In this document: one piece after another, positions 14,256-56,376 of the stretch | Numbering within the stretch: the stretch's first letter is position 1 | Layout: the number at the start of each line of letters is the position of its first letter | IMG/VR virus record: IMGVR_UViG_3300021378_000009 | Span: 1 to 64,000 of that record | DNA length: 64,000 nucleotides | Reading direction: 5' to 3' (one strand) | DNA from: a virus | Translations under genes and position numbers: made by a program | Notes under the pieces: generated by a model | What the model saw: the letters and a program-made list of their open reading frames with translations, nothing else | Databases searched by the model: none | Told to the model about the DNA's origin: nothing

Positions 14256-14765
14256 ATGAGCATGAATTGTAGAGAGACGAAGCTATTAGTTGAGGGATGG
14301 AGAAAGTTATTAAGAGAAGAGATAGATATAGCTGCTAGTGGAGATGTTGAAGTAGCATATCCTGATGATATTGATAGCGATTTGTTAATGAAGGGAGATG
14401 AAGATGGTGAGATAAGTGGTTTTGTATATCCTGATGATAGTAGACGTTTAAGAGGGGGAATATATTATGAAGGCGAGTTAGTGGGGTTTATGACACCTCG
14501 AGAAGAAAGAAGTGGATGGAGAGTGGGTGCGATTTATATTGATAGTGAAGTAAGGGAGAGTATTAGAGGAATAGGTAGTATTGCGATATCGAAGTTTTTT
14601 GTGGGTAGAGAAGCTGCTGATTTGTTGATTGGTGTGGACAATATTTCTTCTAAGAGAGCGTTTAGCAATGCTGGATTTGTAGATACTGGGCGAAAGTATG
14701 TTGATGATAGTGATGGTTGGGAAGCGACTGTGTGGAGTAGGGTGTCTCGGGTGTCACGACGTTGA
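14256..14765 (+). CDS. GNAT-like acetyltransferase domain protein with packaged-protein-like leader
   Basis: Residues about 3-22 (NCRETKLLVEGWRKLLREE) form an amphipathic leader shared with the 15575, 18202 and 20163 products. The C-terminal half resembles a GNAT N-acetyltransferase: a beta strand VGAIYIDSEV, a possible acetyl-CoA loop RGIGSIAISKFF, then VDNISSKRAFSNAGFVDTGR, the usual strand-5/helix end. The substrate is unknown. A short acidic linker joins the two. Starts at ATG 14256 or, two codons later, 14262 are both possible; AAGAGAG lies upstream. It is the first rightward gene after the divergent hub. Confidence 0.7.
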   Translation: MSMNCRETKLLVEGWRKLLREEIDIAASGDVEVAYPDDIDSDLLMKGDEDGEISGFVYPDDSRRLRGGIYYEGELVGFMTPREERSGWRVGAIYIDSEVRESIRGIGSIAISKFFVGREAADLLIGVDNISSKRAFSNAGFVDTGRKYVDDSDGWEATVWSRVSRVSRR

Positions 14766-14836
14766 TGCTTGTTTAATTTATATTTGTGATTTGATTGAAT
14801 ATATATATTTATATTAAATATTAATTAGGAGATAAT

Positions 14837-15442
14837 ATGAGAATAACTGAGAGTAGATTAAGAAGAATTATAAGAAATATATTGAAAGAATCAGCTAGTA
14901 AAAATAGTAGAGGTAATATAGACTTAAGTAAAAGAGGTAAAGAGATAAGCGAGTCTGAAGCAAGAAGTCTTAAGTATGATTTTATTCCTGATCATGGTAT
15001 AATTGCGGGAGAACAAGAAGCTGACAAGCTTATAGAATTATTAAAGGGTAAACAAATCAATACAAATGAAATAGTAATAAGTCCAGATAGTGTTGAAGAT
15101 ATCAAGTGGGCTAACAAGAATGAGTCAAAAGCCTTGATTCCTTTATTTGTGATTGAAGATAGCGACTTAAAAAGTGAGATTAATATTATTGTTTTTAAAG
15201 AAGCAGGAAGTAATACGCATTATAAGTTAAGATTAGATGGCGAAAGTTTTGTAGATAAATCAGCACCGGGTTACCATGGAACAGATCCTAGAGAGATTCA
15301 TTATAGCGATGATATCAAAGCAATTACTAAAAGAGGAAATAAGTATGGTAAACCTAATTTAGATCATTTAGATCGTTTAAGTATAGAAAGATCTGAAGAA
15401 AAAGCGCGTCAAAAAGACATGATGGACAGAGGTCGATTTTAA
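14837..15442 (+). CDS. Unknown 201-aa protein with ITES-type leader
   Basis: It begins MRITESRLRRIIRNILKES, a short amphipathic helix almost identical to the start of the 16094 and 16824 products, with L-K-E at residues 16-18. I do not recognise the remainder: an alpha/beta-looking middle (LIELLKGKQINTNEIVISPD, IPLFVIEDSDLKSEINIIVF) and a basic, His/Arg-rich end. The RBS is TTAGGAGAT. If the leader is a head-targeting signal (see findings), the cargo would be a DNA-coejected protein. Confidence 0.7.
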   Translation: MRITESRLRRIIRNILKESASKNSRGNIDLSKRGKEISESEARSLKYDFIPDHGIIAGEQEADKLIELLKGKQINTNEIVISPDSVEDIKWANKNESKALIPLFVIEDSDLKSEINIIVFKEAGSNTHYKLRLDGESFVDKSAPGYHGTDPREIHYSDDIKAITKRGNKYGKPNLDHLDRLSIERSEEKARQKDMMDRGRF

Positions 15443-15574
15443 GTCGGAAATATTTGATAATTTTGATCGAGATGGGTGTCGCCTGTGTCACGACGTTTAA
15501 TTGTGTTAAACTTTTCATATTGAATTGATTAAACATATTTATATGCATATAAAGATTGATTAGGAGTTAATGTA

Positions 15575-16045
15575 ATGAACAAAGAAGAGACAAGATTATT
15601 AGTTGAGAGTTGGAGAGATTTGATAAGTGAAGACGTATATAGTATGAGACCTAGTCCTGATCCTATTGATAAACAGACTATGACTTCTGTGGTGCCAAAG
15701 GATCAGATAAGTGGTGCTAGTTCCAAGGTTGAAGTAATGAAGTTAATGAGTGTGAGTACAGGATTTTTCGGTACATTAGTTGATTCAATTAGATTTGGGT
15801 TCTTGTCAAGAGAAGAAGTGAATAAAATATGTGATGCTTTATCATCAGGTTGTGAGGATAATTTTAAGAGTTTACCTTCAACGCACGCTTGTTTGAAGTA
15901 TTGGAAGTCTGAGGTTTCTCGTTTAGTTGATCGAGTTGATGAAGAGTTTAAATTAGCGTTTTGTGAGAGTATAAAGAGTAATTGTGAGATGGTAAAGAAT
16001 AATTATAGTAGAGCATATGGTAAAATAAAGCAATTAAGAATGTAA
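15575..16045 (+). CDS. Unknown 156-aa protein with ETKLLVE-type leader
   Basis: It starts MNKEETRLLVESWRDLISED after TTAGGAG, matching the 14256 and 18202 leaders, with I-S-E at residues 17-19. The body (KVEVMKLMSVSTGFFGTLVDSIRFG, then cysteine-containing helices to the end) looks all-helical with four cysteines; no motif is recognised. A decayed copy of its last ~50 nt lies at about 18152-18204, so this gene has been involved in a local duplication. Confidence 0.7.
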   Translation: MNKEETRLLVESWRDLISEDVYSMRPSPDPIDKQTMTSVVPKDQISGASSKVEVMKLMSVSTGFFGTLVDSIRFGFLSREEVNKICDALSSGCEDNFKSLPSTHACLKYWKSEVSRLVDRVDEEFKLAFCESIKSNCEMVKNNYSRAYGKIKQLRM

Positions 16046-16093
16046 TTTTTTGCTGATAATATATAGATATATTAAAAAATTAAGGAGATTAAT

Positions 16094-16432
16094 ATGAAAA
16101 TAACTGAAAGTAAGTTAAGAAGTATTATAAAAAGTGTATTAAATGAGTCTGAATTTATGCCTGAAGATTATTTACAAAGAGACTTTGATCATAGAGAAGT
16201 GGATTCTAGTACTAATATGAGTAAAGCAAAGTTTTGCTGTGATATGTCCAAACAAGAATTGATAGAGATGTGTGATAAGATTTGCAAAGCTAATCATAAG
16301 ATGGCTATTCATTGTATTGAATTATGTGCACACTGCTGTAGAGGAGATATTATGGGTTGTTGTAGATGTTTAGACGAGATATGTAAGTGTATTCATTGTG
16401 AAAAAGTATGTTCAGAATCTTGTGGTTGTTAA
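16094..16432 (+). CDS. Cys-rich helical probable metal-binding protein with ITES-type leader
   Basis: Residues 1-18 are the leader MKITESKLRSIIKSVLNES, with L-N-E at 16-18. The C-terminal 65 residues hold about 18 cysteines and several histidines in helical spacing (FCCDMSKQELIEMCDKICKA; CIELCAHCCRGDIMGCC; CKCIHCEKVCSESCGC). This resembles the four-helix Cys-rich copper-storage/DUF326 type, in which inward-facing Cys bind Cu(I). Binding of Cu or Zn is inferred. A metal-binding protein inside a head, or delivered to the cell, would be unusual. The RBS is TAAGGAG. Confidence 0.7.
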   Translation: MKITESKLRSIIKSVLNESEFMPEDYLQRDFDHREVDSSTNMSKAKFCCDMSKQELIEMCDKICKANHKMAIHCIELCAHCCRGDIMGCCRCLDEICKCIHCEKVCSESCGC

Positions 16433-16462
16433 TTAGGTATTTATTATTTTGTGAAGTGAAAA

Positions 16463-16504
16463 AGAAACAACTTATTAATATTTAGAAACAACTTATTAAT
16501 ATTT
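16463..16504. repeat. Two-copy 21-bp direct repeat
   Basis: Two perfect tandem copies of a 21-bp unit starting agaaacaacttattaatatt occupy the gap between the Cys-rich gene and the lipoprotein gene. They end about 20 nt before ATG 16526 and may affect its expression. Confidence 0.9.
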
Positions 16505-16525
16505 AAAGATAAAGGGTTTTTTGAA

Positions 16526-16786
16526 ATGTTTAGGTTTTTATATATTGTATTGTTGTTTTTATTTATTTCTTGCAATGATGATAGAGTGGAAAAAGAAGAA
16601 GATACTAGTGAGTGTAGGGAGTTGACGATTTTAGTTGAAGATTGCATGGTATTGCATAGGGGAGCGTTGAATTATATTGATAGCTGTGGAAGTTTGGATA
16701 TAGAGCAAGCTAAGATGAATTTAACTTGTGAAGACTTGTTAGATTATTTTGGATTAGGTGATATAAGCGGTGATATAGATATGTAA
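16526..16786 (+). CDS. Small lipoprotein, 86 aa
   Basis: MFRFLYIVLLFLFISCNDD is a typical short lipoprotein signal with lipobox FISC, Cys16 being the modified residue. The mature part is acidic, with four further cysteines (C-RELTILVED-C; DSC; LTC) that could form two disulfides. Function is unknown; a periplasmic or outer-membrane role such as altering host surface or superinfection is possible. The upstream site AAAGGG is moderate. It is flanked by leader-bearing genes but lacks that leader. Confidence 0.65.
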   Translation: MFRFLYIVLLFLFISCNDDRVEKEEDTSECRELTILVEDCMVLHRGALNYIDSCGSLDIEQAKMNLTCEDLLDYFGLGDISGDIDM

Positions 16787-16823
16787 AGCATTAGTCTAGA
16801 TCATAATCAAGTATGTCGCCGTA

Positions 16824-17198
16824 TTAATTGTAACCGCCTGCTGGCATATCACTCATGTCGTATGAAGTGTTTATTTCATCTTCATCATAAGTTGGTGGGT
16901 AGTCAAAGTCTAAGTTGCCTATTCTTTTGTTAAATTCATCTTCTGACATGATTTCATCTGTGACTTCATCTACATAGAATACTTCTCCAGTTACAGGATC
17001 ATTTACTTTTGTATATTCTGGATGCTTAATATCTTTTTCATATCCGTGATTATCGAAAGAGTATCTTTCAGGATCTGGATTACCTTGTTCAAGCGAGTCT
17101 TCTAAGCTGCTTCCGCTAGAGTAGTATTCGTTTTCTTCATAATTTTCAGATATAACGTTTTTTATAATTTTTCTAAGCTTTTTTTCTGTTATTAGCAT
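16824..17198 (-). CDS. Acidic 124-aa protein with ITES-type leader, reverse oriented
   Basis: It starts MLITEKKLRKIIKNVISENY at 17198 after AGAAAGAAA, with I-S-E at residues 16-18, the same register as the 14837 and 16094 leaders. The remainder is strongly acidic and low in structure (Asp, Glu, Tyr, Ser) and ends DMPAGGYN. A short motif VTGEVFYVDEVTDEIMSEDE resembles a small beta hairpin. It is the only leader-bearing gene on the reverse strand, so the leader has been kept through an inversion or independent insertion. Confidence 0.65.
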   Translation of the reverse strand: MLITEKKLRKIIKNVISENYEENEYYSSGSSLEDSLEQGNPDPERYSFDNHGYEKDIKHPEYTKVNDPVTGEVFYVDEVTDEIMSEDEFNKRIGNLDFDYPPTYDEDEINTSYDMSDMPAGGYN

Positions 17199-17265
17199 AA
17201 ATTTTCTTTCTTTTTTTTATGTATATATTATAAGTATAACTAAAAAACATTAAAAGGCTTTTATT

Positions 17266-17946
17266 ATGAAAATATCAGAAATATTATTGAGAAAATTAAT
17301 ACGTGAAGTTATATTATTTGAGTTAAGTAATAAGTTTATTCTTAAAGGCTTAGTGTATAACATGTCAGATGAGCCGAAAAAGTTTGAGAGTATGCTTGAA
17401 ACGAATCATTATTCAGATATTGATGAAGAAATATTGATAGATGATCCGCCATCTGAATTAGAAAGAGTTAAAGAGTTAAATTTGATAAAAAAACAGTATA
17501 ATAATAAGTTTAATGATGAGAGTATGCTTTACAGACTAGACGTTGAAATTAATGAATTATTTGATGAATTAATTATTGACAGTGGTTTTGATTCTCATAT
17601 CGATTTGGTAAAAAAAATAAAAAGCGAGATTTCTGAAATCATTTATTATCATAAAGAACATTTTAGTTGTTTAAGACCTAAATTTTTAGCTAAAAAACAC
17701 AATATTATATTTAATAGCGATGATTTAGAATCAGCAGAATCAAGTGCATATCCTTCAGGTCATGCTGCGCAGGGATATTATATCGCTTACAGACTATCTG
17801 ATCGTTTTCCGTTGTTAAGAAAAGAGTTCTTGAATCTTGCTAAAAAGATTTCGCAGTCAAGGTTAGATAGAGGTGTTCATTTTCCATCTGATATTAATAG
17901 CGGAAAAGCTTTAGCTAAAAAACTATACAAGAAATTTAAACATTAG
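17266..17946 (+). CDS. PAP2-superfamily (class A acid phosphatase-like) phosphatase with ITES-type leader
   Basis: The complete phosphatidic-acid-phosphatase signature is present: K130-x6-R137-P138, P163-S-G-H166 and S198-R-x5-H205-x3-D209. In this family the second His is the nucleophile and the first the proton donor, giving a non-specific phosphomonoesterase or lipid/diphosphate phosphatase. No membrane helices are visible, unlike PAP2 lipid phosphatases, so a soluble class-A type is more likely. The N-terminus MKISEILLRKLIREVILFE matches the ITES leaders (I-R-E at 12-14, L-F-E at 17-19) rather than a secretion signal. Residues 30-120 are an extra helical region. Confidence 0.8.
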   Translation: MKISEILLRKLIREVILFELSNKFILKGLVYNMSDEPKKFESMLETNHYSDIDEEILIDDPPSELERVKELNLIKKQYNNKFNDESMLYRLDVEINELFDELIIDSGFDSHIDLVKKIKSEISEIIYYHKEHFSCLRPKFLAKKHNIIFNSDDLESAESSAYPSGHAAQGYYIAYRLSDRFPLLRKEFLNLAKKISQSRLDRGVHFPSDINSGKALAKKLYKKFKH

Positions 17947-18097
17947 TTGGGTAAGAGTTTAATATTTTTACAGTTTTTTTAATTTTTTCAATTTCATCTT
18001 TAGAAAAAGTATTTCTATTAATAGACTCTTCAGCTGTTTTTATTAATATGTTAATCATTTTTAATTGAGTTGTTGTTATTATATATTTTTTATTCAT
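17936..18097 (-). CDS. Possible 53-aa unknown protein
   Basis: A reverse frame starts MNKKYIITTTQLKMINILIK at 18097 and continues as a helical, Lys/Glu-rich protein to 17936, overlapping the end of the phosphatase gene by 11 bp in convergent orientation. Its composition is protein-like, but no clear Shine-Dalgarno precedes it, so I rate it as uncertain. Confidence 0.4.
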   Translation of the reverse strand: MNKKYIITTTQLKMINILIKTAEESINRNTFSKDEIEKIKKTVKILNSYPTNV

Positions 18098-18151
18098 AAA
18101 CGAAATAATATAAAGATTTATATTAATTTATAAAAAGTAATTTTTAGATTG

Positions 18152-18204
18152 CAAAGAATAATTATAGTAAAGCTTATGGTAAATAAAGATAGGAATTAAG
18201 AATG
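18152..18204 (+). pseudogene. Decayed copy of the 3' end of the 15575-16045 gene
   Basis: The run gcaaagaataattatagtaaa, then gcttatggtaaataaag and aattaagaatg, closely matches the last ~50 nt of the 15575-16045 gene, with a one-base loss and substitutions. It ends where the 18202 gene begins, and that gene carries the same leader type. This is a footprint of local duplication followed by replacement of the gene body. Confidence 0.65.
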
Positions 18205-18882
18205 ATTAATAATATTAATAATAAAAAAGAAACAAAGGTTTTAGTAGAAAGCTGGCGAAGACTATTAAATGACGAAGACAATGTTGATAGCCAAGAAGTG
18301 CTTGAAGAGGGTTTAAAACAAAACTTGGCATTAGCAGCTTTGGCAGCTATTGCTTTAAATCCTTTTAAACAAACACAAGCGAGTCCTAATTCAAATTCGC
18401 GTGAAGCAGCTACTTCTGAAATGAATAGTCAGCTCAAACAAAAAGGCGTTAGCGATAGTTTCGTAAAAAAAGAAATAGATGAAAAAATAAATCAATACAT
18501 GAAAGATAACGTTGTTCAAAGTAGAAGCTATGATGATACACACTATCATGTAGAAAAATTAGTAGATTTAGTTAAGAAATATTCAGCTTTAAATAGTGAT
18601 GTAGAAGATGACCCTAAAGCATGTGTTATTAGAATTGTTAAATTAATAGGCAAAAAAGTTCAGGAAAAGTCTAAGTCATATATGAGAGGTGATGATCCTA
18701 AAATTGATATTTATGATTTTAATCAAATTGTAAAAAAGTTTGAAAGATATATTGTTAAAAAAAGCGAAAAAGTAAACAAAGATAATGTTAAAGGTAAAAA
18801 AAGCAAAGATTATGATAAAACAACTTTTATAAACCAAGAATTAATTGATCAACAAAAAGCAGCGGGAAATACGAGTTTATAA
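18202..18882 (+). CDS. Unknown 226-aa protein with ETKLLVE-type leader and hydrophobic segment
   Basis: It begins MINNINNKKETKVLVESWRRLL, the same leader as the 15575 product with an N-terminal extension. VLEEGLKQNLALAALAAIAL (about residues 33-52) follows: an Ala/Leu helix ending before an NPF...TQAS segment, reminiscent of an internal signal or membrane-active helix. The rest is a basic helical protein with a HYHVEKLVDLVKKY segment. I know of no assigned function. If cleaved at L-x-E sites, the hydrophobic helix would be left near the new N-terminus, which would suit membrane insertion during DNA delivery. Confidence 0.65.
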   Translation: MINNINNKKETKVLVESWRRLLNDEDNVDSQEVLEEGLKQNLALAALAAIALNPFKQTQASPNSNSREAATSEMNSQLKQKGVSDSFVKKEIDEKINQYMKDNVVQSRSYDDTHYHVEKLVDLVKKYSALNSDVEDDPKACVIRIVKLIGKKVQEKSKSYMRGDDPKIDIYDFNQIVKKFERYIVKKSEKVNKDNVKGKKSKDYDKTTFINQELIDQQKAAGNTSL

Positions 18883-19072
18883 TAAAGCAAATTCACATTC
18901 GAACGAAGATAATGATAATTAAAATGAATTTTAATATAAGATATTTTTAATATCAGTTTTTCTTAAAGTTGTTATCTCCATAAACATCGTCTTTTTTCTA
19001 ATGTATATGTTCCAGTAATTTTTGTTGTGCATGAAGTTTATGTATAAATGTTACTAAAAGGTGGAGATAATA
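18883..19072. other. Convergent intergenic gap with weak hairpin
   Basis: Rightward and leftward genes converge here. The sequence gatatttttaatatc, followed by a run of T (18,948-18,968 area), could be a weak terminator for the rightward transcript. TTATCTCC and GGAGATAA form a distant inverted repeat across the gap. I see no convincing gene. Confidence 0.35.
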
Positions 19073-19711
19073 TTATTTAATATATTTTTCTAACTCTAAT
19101 CTTGGGTTTGAAGAATTAACTATTGATCTAGATATGTTATATATTACATTTTCATTTTTTATATTTTTATTAATTGAGCCGCCTTGTATTTCTATTCCTG
19201 TACACAAAATTTCAGCGTTCGGACATTTTTCTATTGTTTTTTCTAATATATTTTCTTTATTTCCTGCAACTAAGATGCCAGTTTTTAATTTTTTTGACAT
19301 ATCGTATATCTTTTCAAATACATCTTCACTTTGCATGAATTCTGATCCTATATTTGAAGTTTTGCATAAAACAAAGTTCATTTTATGTTCATATCTTGTA
19401 AATGGAACTAAAGATTCATATCCTGCATATGGATTAAGCGTTACACCACTTGCTCTAAGCACGTCATATATGTGATAAGCGTAATGATCGTTATTATGAA
19501 GTACATCACCGATTTTTCCATCGTATATCCACTTTGCGCCAATATAATTTAATTGTTTAATTAATTTGTCTAAGACTCTTTGATTTCCTAAAAAGTAAGA
19601 TGGATTTATTTTATAACTGTGAACTAAGTCTTTAGTTTCATCAATAACTTTATAGTAATTAAATAATCTAGTACCCGGTTCTAAGTCTAGCCCTAAGCAT
19701 ATTTTATTCAT
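19073..19711 (-). CDS. pyrF: Orotidine-5'-phosphate decarboxylase
   Basis: This is the last enzyme of UMP synthesis, converting OMP to UMP plus CO2. The catalytic D-x-K-x-x-D motif is intact (Asp64, Lys66, Asp69 in YDGKIGDVLHN), as are Asp9 (GLDL), Lys34 (YKINPSYF), the T-x-NPY segment (TLNPYAGYESLVPF), the TSN turn and a C-terminal ISRSIVNSSNP phosphate-binding end. At 212 aa it is a compact family member. The start ATG 19711 has AAGGAATTTCT upstream. A phage copy would relieve pyrimidine limitation during replication. It stands alone and reverse to its neighbours, suggesting separate acquisition. Confidence 0.85.
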   Translation of the reverse strand: MNKICLGLDLEPGTRLFNYYKVIDETKDLVHSYKINPSYFLGNQRVLDKLIKQLNYIGAKWIYDGKIGDVLHNNDHYAYHIYDVLRASGVTLNPYAGYESLVPFTRYEHKMNFVLCKTSNIGSEFMQSEDVFEKIYDMSKKLKTGILVAGNKENILEKTIEKCPNAEILCTGIEIQGGSINKNIKNENVIYNISRSIVNSSNPRLELEKYIK

Positions 19712-19840
19712 AGAAATTCCTTTTTTTTTATTGTATAAATAAATCTTTTTTTTTACAAATTTATAAAAGTATAAGTTAAGAAATTTATAAAATAGTTAAT
19801 ATCAAGATATAATAATTATATCATTTTTAAGAGAGATAAT

Positions 19841-20134
19841 ATGAAAAAAGATTATTTATATTTTATACAGTCAGATAAAACAGGAATGATAAAGGTTGGT
19901 AGATCTAAAGATCCTAATAGAAGATTGAAGCAGCTTCAAACGGGTAATGCTAACAAGCTTAAATTAATATCATCTTTCAAAGGAATGGGGTGGAGAGAGA
20001 AAATAATTCATGAAAGTCTTAGTAGATGGTCTGAAGAGGGTGAGTGGTTTAATTGCAACTGTGTTGGTAGTATACCTGATGATATTTATGAAAAAATTAA
20101 ACATGGTAGTTTTGATAGTTGGTGGATTACATAA
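19841..20134 (+). CDS. GIY-YIG-superfamily T5orf172/MUG113-like protein
   Basis: The fold markers are YFIQSDKTGMIKVGRS, then DPNRRLKQLQTGNANKLKLI, an E near residue 57 (REKIIHESL) and GEWFNC, the standard order for T5orf172/MUG113 domains, which are GIY-YIG-like nucleases often found as stand-alone phage genes. At 97 aa it is a single-domain version without a DNA-binding partner domain. A nuclease role in homing or DNA processing is inferred. The RBS is GAGAG. It ends 28 nt before a leader-bearing gene. Confidence 0.75.
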   Translation: MKKDYLYFIQSDKTGMIKVGRSKDPNRRLKQLQTGNANKLKLISSFKGMGWREKIIHESLSRWSEEGEWFNCNCVGSIPDDIYEKIKHGSFDSWWIT

Positions 20135-20162
20135 TATATAAAATAAAAAAAGGTTTATATAA

Positions 20163-21068
20163 ATGATTAACAAAGATTTCAAGGGTATATTAAAAGAGTG
20201 GAATAGTTTTATTAGTGAATCTTTTAAAAACATAAATTTATCAGATATAGATGAAGACAAATATAACTTTGGGTATGAAGATGAAGACTATAAAAACTAT
20301 GATGAAGTAAGTGTAAGTAATTCTAATTTTTATAAAGAATTTGATATAAACAATCCAGAAGATTTTAAAAAGATAGAAAAGTTTAATTTAGTTGACGACA
20401 TACATGGTGTTAATTATAAAATTATGAGTATAATTAGAAAGCTTGAAAGATATGTTCATGAAGAAAGAGAATTAAAAAAAGATAATAGTATAATGGGAAG
20501 AATTAAGCTGTATGAAGATGAAGATGAGTGTTTTATAAAATTTGACTTCAGCGAGTTATCAGAAAGCAGAGCAATATCAAGTACTATTGACTTTGAAGCA
20601 ACAGATAAAGACTGGCCTACAGGATATGGCGAAGGTGCATATAGAATAATGCTTGTTCATAAGTCTACAGAGGGTTTTAATGCAGTTATATTCGAAGTAA
20701 TGTTAGAATTTTTATCAATGATAAGAGATAAAAGTGTTTGTTCAGATAGAAAGTCAGTTTCTTTAAATGCACAAAAGAAATGGCAAATATATGCCAATAG
20801 AAATGATATTGAAATTATTCAACTTGATATAAACAAAGCAGAGTCAGAAGAGTTTAGAATTCCTCAATTAACCCCAGACAATGTATTAGATGATACTTCA
20901 CAAAAACTGGCTTATAGGCATAAAGGTGAAGAGTGGTATAATTCAATATTTTCTAAGTCAATAAAGAAAACAAATATGAATACTATGAAGTATATTGCAA
21001 ATAGCTCTGAGTATCTGGAGTTAGTTTTTGCTATTAAAGATTCTCATGAATTATTAAATAAGCTATAG
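20163..21068 (+). CDS. Unknown 301-aa protein with ETKLLVE-related leader
   Basis: The start MINKDFKGILKEWNSFISES parallels the 15575 leader in register, with W13 and I-S-E at 17-19. The middle segment GYGEGAYRIMLVHKSTEGFN, then VIFEVMLEFLSM and CSDRKSVSLNAQKKWQIYAN, resembles a block I recall from other marine phage proteins (GPLLYDI-type, then DR-x-SVS), for which no function is established to my knowledge. The remainder is acidic and helical. The site before ATG is AAAAAAAGG. Probably another packaged or early protein. Confidence 0.65.
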   Translation: MINKDFKGILKEWNSFISESFKNINLSDIDEDKYNFGYEDEDYKNYDEVSVSNSNFYKEFDINNPEDFKKIEKFNLVDDIHGVNYKIMSIIRKLERYVHEERELKKDNSIMGRIKLYEDEDECFIKFDFSELSESRAISSTIDFEATDKDWPTGYGEGAYRIMLVHKSTEGFNAVIFEVMLEFLSMIRDKSVCSDRKSVSLNAQKKWQIYANRNDIEIIQLDINKAESEEFRIPQLTPDNVLDDTSQKLAYRHKGEEWYNSIFSKSIKKTNMNTMKYIANSSEYLELVFAIKDSHELLNKL

Positions 21069-21139: not shown

Positions 21140-21628
21140 TTATTTATCTAACTTTTCACTTCTATCTACTTTTGGTATCCATGCTGATATGTGTTTGTTC
21201 AATTCAACATCATCTTCAGATTTGTGCACTATGACTTTTTTACCTTCCCAAATAGGCATTTTTTCAATTAATGCAATTTGAATATCGTTAAGCTGTTCTG
21301 TCTTTAGCTGATTTTGAATTTGAGAATCTCTTAATCTGGCTATGAGAGCTGCTCTATCAGCATTTGCTGCAGAAAGTTTATCTTTTAATTCTTCTATTTC
21401 AGCAGGATCTTTACCCGCTGCTATTGAAAGCATACTTGATATACTACCTGTAAGCATTCCTATTATACCTATTAGTATATCTCTGTTTTCTTCTTGAATC
21501 TTGACATATGATAAAAATATGATTAAAGCAATAATCATAATCATAAAAAATACAGAAGCCCACCATCCACGTTTAGCTTTTTCAGTTTGATTAAACTGTT
21601 TTTTTGATTTTAAGTCTTTGTTAATCAT
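21140..21628 (-). CDS. Two-helix membrane protein with coiled coil, cyclase partner
   Basis: Residues about 22-43 (WWASVFFMIMIIALIIFLSY) and 50-68 (ILIGIIGMLTGSISSMLSIA) are membrane helices. A coiled coil (IEELKDKLSAANADRAALIA and onward) and a charged C-terminus follow. The ATG at 21628 directly follows the TAA of the cyclase gene, so the two are translationally coupled. A likely role is a membrane partner or effector of the cyclase; no enzymatic domain is visible. A 2-TM plus cytoplasmic-helix layout is also seen in some cyclic-nucleotide-gated defence effectors, but without sequence similarity I can verify. Confidence 0.65.
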   Translation of the reverse strand: MINKDLKSKKQFNQTEKAKRGWWASVFFMIMIIALIIFLSYVKIQEENRDILIGIIGMLTGSISSMLSIAAGKDPAEIEELKDKLSAANADRAALIARLRDSQIQNQLKTEQLNDIQIALIEKMPIWEGKKVIVHKSEDDVELNKHISAWIPKVDRSEKLDK

Positions 21629-22471
21629 TTATATATTACCTAATGTATTCTCGTATATTGAATGTAAGAAGTTTATGACTATATTTATATAGTCTATCCA
21701 GAAAAAGTAAAAGTCAATCCTTAAAGCAATTCTAGTTGACTCCCTTCCAAGCATAGGCCAAAAATTTTTAATTAAAAATATTAAAGATATAATACCTAAT
21801 TTTGGATATAAATACCAGAACCATTCTTTTAGCTTTCTATCTCTTGCTCGCGACTTTATTTTTTTAGGTCCAGCAATCTTCTTAACTTTGTCAGAATTTT
21901 TTGGAGGTTGTAGACTTTCAATAGAAACACCTACTACATAAACATCTATTGGGTCTCTTATTCCTTTTAACTTATATACTCCTGCGCATGCGTATCTAGC
22001 ATTTTTAGGCGTATGCATATTTGATCTGTTTTTTACTTTATTAAAAGCTTGTGTAGACAAGCATGTTTGACCTCCTGCAGCTAACGACATTATTCTAGCA
22101 GCTGTATTCTTAGATAATCCTTCTAGCTCTACTCGTTTAGCACCTGCGTCTATAAACTTATCTTCTTGCGCTACTTCTATAATTTCGCCCCAATGGATAC
22201 CGATCCTTGCCTGAAGTGTTGTTCTTGGAGGTATTGTTTTATGATATATTAAAGAAAAGTTAACTGCATCTATTGTACTATTAAAACTCATTAGAAAACC
22301 GTCAGATCTATCAATTTCACGACCGTTAAACTTGTATATTAAAGATCTAGTTAACTTATCATGAGCTTGAAAAATTTTTGCAGCATGTTCATTTCCATAT
22401 TTTTGAACAAACTTGGTAGAACCTACTAGATCTAACAAAAGAATACATAAGTTAATTTTTTTCATTTCCAT
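21629..22471 (-). CDS. Class III adenylate/guanylate-type nucleotide cyclase with C-terminal membrane segment
   Basis: The catalytic domain spans residues about 5-185. Metal site 1 is Asp14 in LLLDLVGST, and GREIDRSDGFL supplies the second metal Asp57. RIGIHWGE, then GAKRVELEGLSKNTAARIMS and LAAGGQTCLS, complete the fold. The GREID-x-x-DGFL form marks a bacterial subclass whose substrate (ATP, GTP or pyrimidine) cannot be told from sequence by eye. After a basic linker (about 195-212), residues about 219-240 are hydrophobic (LGIISLIFLIKNFW), so the enzyme is probably membrane tethered. It is coupled to the 21140-21628 gene. A phage-encoded cyclase of this class is uncommon. Confidence 0.85.
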   Translation of the reverse strand: MEMKKINLCILLLDLVGSTKFVQKYGNEHAAKIFQAHDKLTRSLIYKFNGREIDRSDGFLMSFNSTIDAVNFSLIYHKTIPPRTTLQARIGIHWGEIIEVAQEDKFIDAGAKRVELEGLSKNTAARIMSLAAGGQTCLSTQAFNKVKNRSNMHTPKNARYACAGVYKLKGIRDPIDVYVVGVSIESLQPPKNSDKVKKIAGPKKIKSRARDRKLKEWFWYLYPKLGIISLIFLIKNFWPMLGRESTRIALRIDFYFFWIDYINIVINFLHSIYENTLGNI

Positions 22472-22869: not shown

Positions 22870-23667
22870 TTAAAGCTTAGATATTATATGAATCCAACCA
22901 GGTAAATATGTACTACCGTCTGATGTAAAAACAGCACTTTCAAAAGCTTCTTTACTATATGAAGTAATACCATTATTATTTGATGAGTATCCGCACATAA
23001 AACACCCTAGCCATTTCCCGGCGGGATCGTTAACATGATATCTATTGTTATAAAACCCTCTAACTACTATTACATGACCAGATGAAGTGAAGTATCCGTG
23101 AACTATTGCAATATTACCATTTGAAAGTGATTTTAGCAAGTCACTTGGTGAAGCTGAAGTATTTGTTTTTATTTTTGATTTTTTTGAGTAGTGAGAGTAT
23201 ACACTGTTTAATCCCATTGGTGACTGAGCTATATCTTTACCCCACTCGCTAAAGATATAGTCTGGGCTTATTATATATTCAAAATAGCTTAGAGCCATAG
23301 CTATTGAAGTATTTTGACATGTTGAAGACTTATAAAATTCGTTTTCATATTGATTGTAATACGGTATTGATAATATGTCATTTTTACTCTTATCATTATT
23401 TTCTAAGTTATTCAAGAAACCCGCAGGTTCACACAGCATGTATGCATTATTTTCTTTTACGCAAACACATTTTCCGCTACTGCATTCATATTTCCCTTCT
23501 TGTATATTCATGTTCACAGCGTAAGTTGACCAAATGCATTTGTCATTGCACGAGCTACCTGACATTATTTTGTCAATTTTTTTAAAACTACTTTTTTTAA
23601 AATCAGCATCTTCATTAACGCTGCATGAAATTAATAAAAAAAGAACTGTTATAGTATATTTAAGCAT
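22870..23667 (-). CDS. C39-like cysteine peptidase lipoprotein
   Basis: The signal MLKYTITVLFLLISC ends with a lipobox (Cys15). A small Cys-rich region (residues 40-79, CNDKCIWSTY...CSSGKCVCV) precedes a papain-like C39-type domain. SIPYYNQY leads to catalytic Cys117 in TCQNTSIAMAL, His198 in SSGHVIVVRG and Asp214 in HVNDPAGKW. C39-like domains cleave peptides, often bacteriocin leaders or peptidoglycan-linked substrates. As a lipoprotein it would act in the periplasm or outer membrane, for example in lysis control or surface modification. The strong RBS AGGAGATAT precedes ATG 23667. Confidence 0.75.
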   Translation of the reverse strand: MLKYTITVLFLLISCSVNEDADFKKSSFKKIDKIMSGSSCNDKCIWSTYAVNMNIQEGKYECSSGKCVCVKENNAYMLCEPAGFLNNLENNDKSKNDILSIPYYNQYENEFYKSSTCQNTSIAMALSYFEYIISPDYIFSEWGKDIAQSPMGLNSVYSHYSKKSKIKTNTSASPSDLLKSLSNGNIAIVHGYFTSSGHVIVVRGFYNNRYHVNDPAGKWLGCFMCGYSSNNNGITSYSKEAFESAVFTSDGSTYLPGWIHIISKL

Positions 23668-54264: not shown

Positions 54265-56376
54265 ATGATATTTATATTAAATCCAACTAAAGATACATAC
54301 ATTACTAATCTACAGACACAGTTTAATGATGGCAGCTTAGCAAATTTTGGTAAAGCTGCAACAATTGATTTATTTAAATTGTATAATGAAAATAAACATT
54401 CTAAATCTTGGGCAGCTTTTAAATTTACTTCAAGTTTTTCTCAAAACGATAATATAACACTCATAGATGCAGATAATAATTCTGTTACTTTTATTATTGA
54501 TAATACAGAGAATACAGACAACACTTCAGAAAATTTAAGTGCGGGTAAAGTGATAGTAGGCACTTCAGACATAACTGATCATAATGATAGTACTCCTAAA
54601 AACTATTCTCAAAGAATTGCTGATGCTATCAACAATGTTTCTTCTGCAAACAACAGTTTAACTTTGAATATTACTGCATATGGAAATTCAAATAATGTAT
54701 TAGTGCTAAAACAGGATAAACCTGGTGAATCTGGTGATACTACTTTTACAATACCCACAGCTATGGAACATGTTGGAACATCAGCTACTGGTACTGCAAT
54801 TACAAAGTTTTCAAGAATAGACTATAGCGCTGCACTCTTAAAATTTGACATATCTAGTTTTAAGTCAAAATACGTTAGTAATTCTAATAATGAATTTTCT
54901 AGTAGTGTATATAATGATAGTAATAAGTTCAAAGCTGTAATTGTATTGAAAGATGTAACAACAGGTTTATCAAAACCAAAAAATTACACTTTAACTGCGT
55001 ATCCTTTGTTAAAAGATTTTGATGAAGGAATGGGTAAAGATACAATACACTTTTCAGACAAGGGTTCTTCTAACTTTGTTTCTTCTTCGTTGAAAACAGA
55101 TGGAACGTATGATACTTGGAAAATTCCCGGATACATTTCTTTACTTGATGATGTAAGAAATACAGACTCATCAAGTTCTTTAAACTTTAAAGAAGGAAAT
55201 GAAGACATTGTTTTCGATGTAACAAGTTATGTTAAAAAGTTAATAAACGATACAGACGTTGGCGATAATGGTGATGATGATGGAGTTTCTATATTAGACG
55301 ATAAAGGATTTATTGTTACGTTTAGCAATCAATATTTATATAATTTAACTTCGTATTTTGTAAAAAGATCAGGAAGTAGACATCTTTTAAATAAGAAGTT
55401 TATACCACAACTAAGAATTATTATTGACGATAGTAGCTATCATATTCCACAAAATCCAAAAAACAAAAAAAGATATCTAAATAACGAAGAGATTTTTTAC
55501 TTATTCAATAGAGTAAATGGAAAATTAAAAGATTTTTCACCACCTACAGCAGGTGGTGATAACATTAAATTCAAAATCGGTAGTTTATTTGATAGCATAT
55601 CAGACACATCTAATGTTACTAATTTTAAAGGCGAGATAATTTCAGGTATAAAAAAGAAAACATTATCAAATACAGCTCTAAGCAGATTTAATTCAAATAT
55701 ATCTTCACATCTTTTAGCTAGTGGGTCTTATAAAGATGCTTTAACATGGTACTGGGAAGATAGTGATACGACTATAGTAGAAGCAGGATCTTTTGTTATA
55801 GGGAAAAAATATAAAATTAGAAATTACGCTGCTGGACAAAATGATTTTACTACAATAGGAGCATTAAATAATAACGTAGGAACTGTTTTTACAGCTACAG
55901 GAGCAGGTTCAGGAGCAGGTGATGCTTTTGAAGTTGTAGAATATAATATATTATCAGAGTCTATTGAGTTTTTAGCAGGCGAGACATTAAATGAGATAAA
56001 TTATAGAAATGTTAATGTTGCTATAAGAATCGAAGACAATAGATTAGTATCAGATGATAATATACAAACAATTGAAGTATTCTTTATAGATAATTTTAAG
56101 CAGTATGATGTTGTTAAAGTTCCTTATGACTTACCTAGTGATAATATAGGCACAGTATATTATAAAGTGTTAGATGTTGATACTGACGATGTATTAATAG
56201 ATTACAATGATATTGGTACAAAATTATTTTTTGATGGTGAAAAATATATTTTTGATTTATTTGTACCAAAAATATTTAAAAATAAAAGAGTAATATTTGA
56301 ATTTAAAACATTTGACAATATTACTGGAGTTAAAAAACTTATAAAATCAATTAATAAAATTTTTAGGATAGAATAA
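54265..56376 (+). CDS. Large baseplate or tail structural protein, 703 aa
   Basis: The opening MIFILNPTKDTYITNLQTQF and LLKFDISSFKS, then KGSSNFVSSSLKTDGTYDTW, resemble the DNRLRE-like carbohydrate-binding-type structural proteins found after gp6 in marine myoviruses. A module GKKYKIRNYAAGQNDFTTIG...VFTATGAGSGAGDAFEV (residues about 510-560) is also present, shortened, in the 34313 fibre. Probable baseplate or short-fibre attachment protein. The RBS AAAGGTAAATT precedes ATG 54265; the stop overlaps the next ATG. Confidence 0.7.
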   Translation: MIFILNPTKDTYITNLQTQFNDGSLANFGKAATIDLFKLYNENKHSKSWAAFKFTSSFSQNDNITLIDADNNSVTFIIDNTENTDNTSENLSAGKVIVGTSDITDHNDSTPKNYSQRIADAINNVSSANNSLTLNITAYGNSNNVLVLKQDKPGESGDTTFTIPTAMEHVGTSATGTAITKFSRIDYSAALLKFDISSFKSKYVSNSNNEFSSSVYNDSNKFKAVIVLKDVTTGLSKPKNYTLTAYPLLKDFDEGMGKDTIHFSDKGSSNFVSSSLKTDGTYDTWKIPGYISLLDDVRNTDSSSSLNFKEGNEDIVFDVTSYVKKLINDTDVGDNGDDDGVSILDDKGFIVTFSNQYLYNLTSYFVKRSGSRHLLNKKFIPQLRIIIDDSSYHIPQNPKNKKRYLNNEEIFYLFNRVNGKLKDFSPPTAGGDNIKFKIGSLFDSISDTSNVTNFKGEIISGIKKKTLSNTALSRFNSNISSHLLASGSYKDALTWYWEDSDTTIVEAGSFVIGKKYKIRNYAAGQNDFTTIGALNNNVGTVFTATGAGSGAGDAFEVVEYNILSESIEFLAGETLNEINYRNVNVAIRIEDNRLVSDDNIQTIEVFFIDNFKQYDVVKVPYDLPSDNIGTVYYKVLDVDTDDVLIDYNDIGTKLFFDGEKYIFDLFVPKIFKNKRVIFEFKTFDNITGVKKLIKSINKIFRIE

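Follow-up and report, generated by a model that had tools for sequence, protein, structure and literature searches.

Eight proteins encoded in one cassette of a T4-related uncultured phage start with one of two short leaders, and in all likelihood these leaders are capsid-targeting propeptides that are cut by an S77 prohead protease, leaving packaged and probably injected proteins. The window analysed here covers positions 1-64000 of a virus record that is 102,517 bases long (G000). The initial annotation had proposed shared N-terminal leaders on eight products, and we found all eight open reading frames (ORFs) and both leader types in the sequence at the positions listed in Table 1. Leader A, with the consensus MKITES-x-LR-x-II..., opens the ORFs 14837, 16094, 17198 (reverse) and 17266, and leader B, with the consensus ETK-x-LLVE-x-WR-x-LL..., opens 14256, 15575, 18202 and 20163. 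A further leader B protein is encoded outside the window at 100389-101528 of the same record. The motif [LI]xE stood at the end of the leader helix in seven of the eight window proteins, the exception being 18202. It occupied residues 16-18 in 14837, 16094 and 17198 (reverse), residues 17-19 in 17266, 15575 and 20163, and residues 19-21 in 14256. The registers given earlier for 14837, 16094, 17198, 15575 and 20163 were confirmed, and 14256 (LRE) and 17266 (LFE) were added to them; 18202 carries LND. The parts downstream of the leaders had been described as unrelated, which agreed with the comparison of the window leader proteins, none of which matched another at E<=1e-4.

Table 1. Leader ORFs of the window, numbered as in the record, and leader C ORFs of related viral sequences. 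The slash marks the predicted cut.
ORF	Strand	Leader, protein	Leader coordinates	Leader sequence	Predicted cut	Cargo
14256..14765	+	B, 169 aa	14256-14318	ETKLLVEGWRKLLRE/E	after LRE-21	GNAT-like by eye only
14837..15442	+	A, 201 aa	14837-14890	MRITESRLRRIIRNILKE/S	after LKE-18	
15575..16045	+	B, 156 aa	15575-15631	ETRLLVESWRDLISE/D	after ISE-19	
16094..16432	+	A, 112 aa	16094-16147	MKITESKLRSIIKSVLNE/S	after LNE-18	Cys-rich
16824..17198	-	A, 124 aa, acidic	17145-17198	MLITEKKLRKIIKNVISE/N	after ISE-18	
17266..17946	+	A, 226 aa	17266-17322	MKISEILLRKLIREVILFE/L	after LFE-19	PAP2-superfamily phosphatase
18202..18882	+	B, 226 aa	18202-18273	ETKVLVESWRRLLND	ends LND instead of LxE	
20163..21068	+	B, 301 aa	20163-20219	DFKGILKEWNSFISE/S	after ISE-19	
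L036 2501-3304		C				
L107 14615-15361		C				
L175 13179-13775		C				

The functional labels suggested for the cargoes were borne out in part. The phosphatase label was confirmed for 17266, the cargo of which matched PAP2 (E=2.6e-9), and the Cys-rich and acidic labels can be read from the sequence itself. The GNAT identity of 14256 received no support from Pfam or PDB profiles. The AlphaFold models of 20163 and 14256 were of low confidence, with a mean pLDDT of 47 and 38, respectively. Relatives of the 14256 protein, 70-76% identical, were found in L190 and L191, and the leader of the L191 relative had diverged to MIRKDMSLLLSEWKVFLNES. Homologues that also carry leader A were found for 16094 (L036, 7370-7732) and for 17266 (G006/L154). 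By inspection, Cys-rich leader A proteins resembling 16094 occurred in the arrays of L191 and L192, and leader B proteins laid out like 18202 occurred in L029, L036 and L192; a pattern search for 18202 relatives confirmed none. In an alignment of seven sequences, the leader Glu of 20163 (E19) was invariant.

Several other genes lie in or near the cassette. A small lipoprotein-like ORF without a leader (16526-16786, +) has similar ORFs in the arrays of L191 (4886-5128) and L192 (6048-6290), and its product is possibly an envelope or superinfection-exclusion protein. Also within the cassette are a PyrF-like OMP decarboxylase gene (19073-19711, -; 4e-16) and a gene for a T5orf172/GIY-YIG-type protein (19841-20134, +), which is possibly a homing or mobile element. 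Beyond it, at 21140-22471 (-), a gene for a nucleotidyl cyclase-like protein of class III (Guanylate_cyc, 1.2e-4, slightly over the cut-off) adjoins one for a two-TM-like protein, which matched a SLATT-type effector domain weakly and below threshold; the layout of this pair recalls that of a phage-borne Pycsar-like cyclase-effector pair. A secreted-looking C39-like cysteine peptidase (1.6e-14) is encoded at 22870-23667 (-). Most leader genes are preceded by an AT-rich region of their own that contains TATATA-like stretches, similar to what is found at some structural genes. Inspection of the regions upstream of the leader genes (14256-20163) for a common late-promoter motif gave nothing conclusive, and late promoters cannot be called there because the DNA is too AT-rich.

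To follow the leaders beyond the window, viral and prokaryotic sequences were searched. A degenerate DNA pattern for leader A matched 61 stretches of IMG/VR contigs, and its reversed-codon control matched none. There were 64 matches within these 61 stretches, and all of them start ORFs. In 257 Gb of prokaryotic genomes the same pattern gave three matches, two of them in phage-like contigs: one contig bears additional leader-A-like ORFs, the other belongs to an assembly with an S77 gene, and the third match lies beside a permease gene and is an apparent chance match. A leader A profile seeded from the pattern scan matched 86 times at ORF starts (residues <=13; about 37,000 positions) and 34 times internally (about 543,000 positions), and several of the internal matches begin at Met. 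Leader A is thus concentrated at the beginning of ORFs and specific to viruses, and its occurrence is not due to chance. A strict DNA pattern for leader B found no match among viral contigs, and leader B relatives were located by a position profile. When the short consensus peptides of the leaders were compared with isolate phages by tblastn, no match was obtained with these queries, which are too short to be informative. None of the open-access journal papers searched quotes the leader peptides. Collectively, these searches, which include the profile search proposed in the initial annotation, placed both leaders in front of a wide range of unrelated cargoes in related viral genomes.

The cleavage motif was then evaluated in leader proteins. 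For leader A, the profile of which came from the pattern scan, proteins were chosen on residues 2-13 only and thinned to 99 non-redundant sequences. Of these, 69 had an [LI]xE motif that places the E at residues 16-24, whereas shuffles of residues 14-45 gave 15.0+-3.5 (s.d.) and other ORFs gave 312 of 2500 (12%). For leader B, proteins were chosen on W-6 to W+2, and an E at W+6 was observed in 18 of 26, compared with 2.1 in shuffles. The residue following the E of the motif was mostly A, S or N. These results indicated that, as the initial annotation had suggested, a cleavage motif stands at the end of the leaders, with [LI]xE far above shuffles right behind both of them.

The initial annotation had tied its reading to a prohead protease in the genome. 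Such a protease was found outside the window, where a Peptidase_S77 domain (T4 gp21-type) lies at 90737-91159 of the record (Pfam, E=1.5e-28), within an ORF (90629-91258) that PHROGs assigned to head maturation protease (phrog_207, 2e-49). A search for Peptidase_S78 (PF04586) gave no match. The protease ORF adjoins the terminase, portal and gp23-type major capsid protein (MCP) genes, and the genes for a gp17-type terminase, gp20 portal, gp21 protease and gp23 MCP stand in one module, as in the T4 superfamily. Where T4 gp23 is cut during maturation, the MCP retains [LI]xE, with QVLRE/SSTMN here and FLTE/AEIGG in T4; all close relatives keep the motif there, and S or A follows it in most of them. 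The nearest MCPs from isolates were only about 34-43% identical to those of this lineage. Directly after the MCP gene, outside the window, lies a NUMOD3 homing-endonuclease-like gene (98050-99444 of the record; L003, 17050-18444).

The leaders also reach into the head module. In nine genomes the protease gene is directly followed by genes for two small proteins with leader-A-like starts, both with [LI]xE sites, and these open MAKVSKELLKEIVKECLVEILAEG and KLT-x3-LRRII-x-EE-x3-L-x-E; in the record analysed here, head-module proteins with leader-A-like starts are encoded at 91672 and 92175. In addition, small acidic proteins encoded shortly downstream of the MCP gene start with leader B in G008, G012 and G021, and these proteins recall the acidic core protein gp67 of T4. 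Within the 20 large leader A records, S77 was found in 11, including all those of >=132 kb. In eight of the nine large records without S77 the MCP is missing too, and these records look like fragments. In the ninth, G010, no more than about 5.5 kb separate the MCP from the record end on the side of the protease, too short a stretch to include it. Phages can have S77 and yet none of leaders A, B and C, as seen in immuto, RM378 and Mel-JY01; the leaders therefore mark a lineage and not the protease. No virion proteomics of immuto, a relative, was found in the literature searched.

Leader genes form arrays in which leaders and cargoes are combined in different ways. G012 has a cassette mixing leaders A and B, and arrays longer than that of the window occur in related phages. 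In G021 (153 kb), eight leader ORFs share one strand at 146.1-152.5 kb, and similar arrays were found in L191 and L192. By a stricter count, G016 (284 kb) contains 26 leader A and 5 leader C ORFs, or about 30 in one genome. Leader C, M-x-LL-x-x-YI[KR]-x-LL-x-E, is a third family, found in part on a cargo domain that also follows leader B, and leader C ORFs were found in G001, G008, G013 and G016 as well as at the positions in Table 1. Few of the 145 leader proteins matched Pfam, the matches being to NUDIX, PAP2, RNase_T, AAA_33, cytidylyltransferase and some DUFs. The same cargo was found with different leaders: NUDIX homologues carry leader A, leader B or none, homologues of the 20163 cargo domain carry leader B or leader C, another cargo domain carries leader A or leader B, and a cytidylyltransferase-like protein carries leader B or none. 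Some ORFs have two copies of leader A, one N-terminal and one internal, both in G016 (L173, L178; for example 185415-186140, 274326-275036 and 283159-283842) and in G007 (55116-56204); these could be two-cargo polyproteins or reflect nested start sites.

Previous studies have reported that in T4 an N-terminal capsid-targeting sequence (CTS) of ~10 residues brings internal proteins (IPs) into the scaffold core, that gp21 removes the CTS, and that the IPs are injected (PMC9958956, PMC3012670). Ip1, Ip2 and Ip3 of T4 each block a distinct GmrSD restriction enzyme (PMC12373910). The ip loci of T-even phages are hypervariable, and at least 10 IPs were identified via the signal sequence, according to Repoila 1994 as cited in PMC12373910. 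The proteins described here are like T4 IPI, IPII, IPIII and Alt in having a short N-terminal leader on unrelated proteins and the [LI]xE motif, and the two systems share an S77 protease, T4-type head genes and an accessory gene cluster. By eye only, the end of leader B, WRKFVNE/A, is similar to the start of T4 IPII and IPIII, MKTYQEFIAE/A, and leader B proteins such as MKLIMENWRKFVNE/A have the aromatic-x-x-F-[IV]-x-E-A layout of IPII and IPIII, whereas leader A could not be aligned by eye to the T4 CTS MKTYQEFIAEA. The leaders here, at 18-21 residues, are longer than the T4 CTS and fall into at least three families (A, B, C). T4 has three IPs, whereas the number of ORFs with leader A or C reaches about 30 in G016, and enzyme folds are among the cargoes here. 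The T-even ip loci likewise hold diverse proteins recognised by a conserved leader; these proteins are injected and the loci are confined to tequatroviruses, whereas the leaders described here are different ones from an uncultured distant lineage. The inner-head ejection proteins of phiKZ and SPN3US have propeptides cut by a prohead protease (PMC5694885), but these are mostly >100 residues long with other cleavage motifs, compared with 18-21 residues and [LI]xE here. The initial annotation had regarded the diversity of cargo as the new part; varied cargo behind a conserved capsid-targeting sequence was already described for T-even internal proteins (PMC3012670, PMC12373910). What is new here is the presence of several leader families, the enzyme cargoes, the leader swapping and the size of the arrays (up to about 30 per genome). 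The distant lineage and the leader common to small head-module proteins also differ from what is known.

The leaders might recruit their proteins to the scaffold without any injected arsenal, the proteins being assembly factors or minor scaffold and core components that are degraded or lost. The leader-A-like starts of the conserved small head-module proteins would fit such a role; in T4, proteins of this kind (gp67, gp68 and gp22) are degraded to peptides (PMC9958956). However, the cassette proteins vary among relatives and include enzyme folds (PAP2, NUDIX, exonuclease and AAA kinase), and the leader arrays are variable and lie apart from the head genes. Variable, enzyme-bearing arrays away from the head genes are expected of accessory internal proteins rather than of assembly factors, and we therefore consider an assembly role unlikely. 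It is less probable still that the leaders are a signal for another compartment, such as the membrane, the nucleoid or the host polymerase, with [LI]xE arising incidentally from the many L, I and E residues of an amphipathic helix. Both leaders are more amphipathic than their composition alone would make them, with a hydrophobic moment of 0.446 for leader A and 0.482 for leader B, compared with 0.298+-0.014 and 0.277+-0.025 in shuffles, respectively, and amphipathic helices are generally able to bind membranes or proteins. This calculated property agrees with a signal of that kind, but [LI]xE is much more sharply positioned than in shuffles that keep the composition, and the leaders also occur on head-module proteins in a lineage with an S77 protease.

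The similar starts of neighbouring genes in a fast-changing cassette could also have arisen by cassette duplication or recombination, in which case the common starts would be a recombination or expression device, that is, a conserved 5' stretch of DNA that helps genes to spread or to be translated, and the peptide would have no role. The codons argue against this. The 14256 and 18202 leaders have 10 residues in common, six of them via different codons, and since identical leader residues are often encoded by different codons, it is the peptide that is conserved and not the DNA. A DNA-repeat origin of the leaders was ruled out by the same codon usage. Furthermore, one leader pair lies on opposite strands, and homologous cargo stands behind unrelated leader peptides with the same terminal cleavage motif. 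A DNA device is thus scarcely credible.

Capsid targeting followed by protease cleavage is the reading that we prefer, and the interpretation of the cassette in the initial annotation was supported by the analysis, with packaging and delivery as its predicted part. The leaders can be read directly, as can how widely they occur and how they combine with cargoes, the conserved cleavage motif, the protease and the head genes; from these we infer core binding, cleavage, packaging, injection and cargo action. The leader would act as a short amphipathic helix, in line with the hydrophobic moments of leaders A and B, and would bring its protein into the internal scaffold (core) of a T4-type prohead. 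Once activated, the S77 (gp21-type) protease would cut behind [LI]xE at the end of the helix, and the cut leader would be discarded along with the degraded scaffold. The mature cargo would stay in the head with the DNA and enter the next host at infection. The cassette would represent an exchangeable set of host-takeover or anti-defence proteins for the first minutes of infection and, on this model, would therefore be this phage's counterpart of the T-even internal-protein loci.

More tentatively, and somewhat short of probable, a large clade of uncultured T4-related phages may use a modular delivery system, in which interchangeable tags (A, B and C) load each virion type with up to dozens of exchangeable effectors. 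Enzymes such as NUDIX hydrolases, PAP2 phosphatases, exonucleases and kinases would be among these effectors, and the tags by themselves would be enough to predict which proteins are injected. The different tags might set the copy number or the place in the core. If the capsid-targeting reading is right, a short sequence profile would single out the proteins that uncultured phages inject, most of which have no known domain, and so supply candidates for anti-defence and host takeover. The CTS of T4 would then probably not be the only tag for protein loading, and the internal-protein principle of T4, so far described from T-even phages, would extend to a distant lineage with multiple tags.
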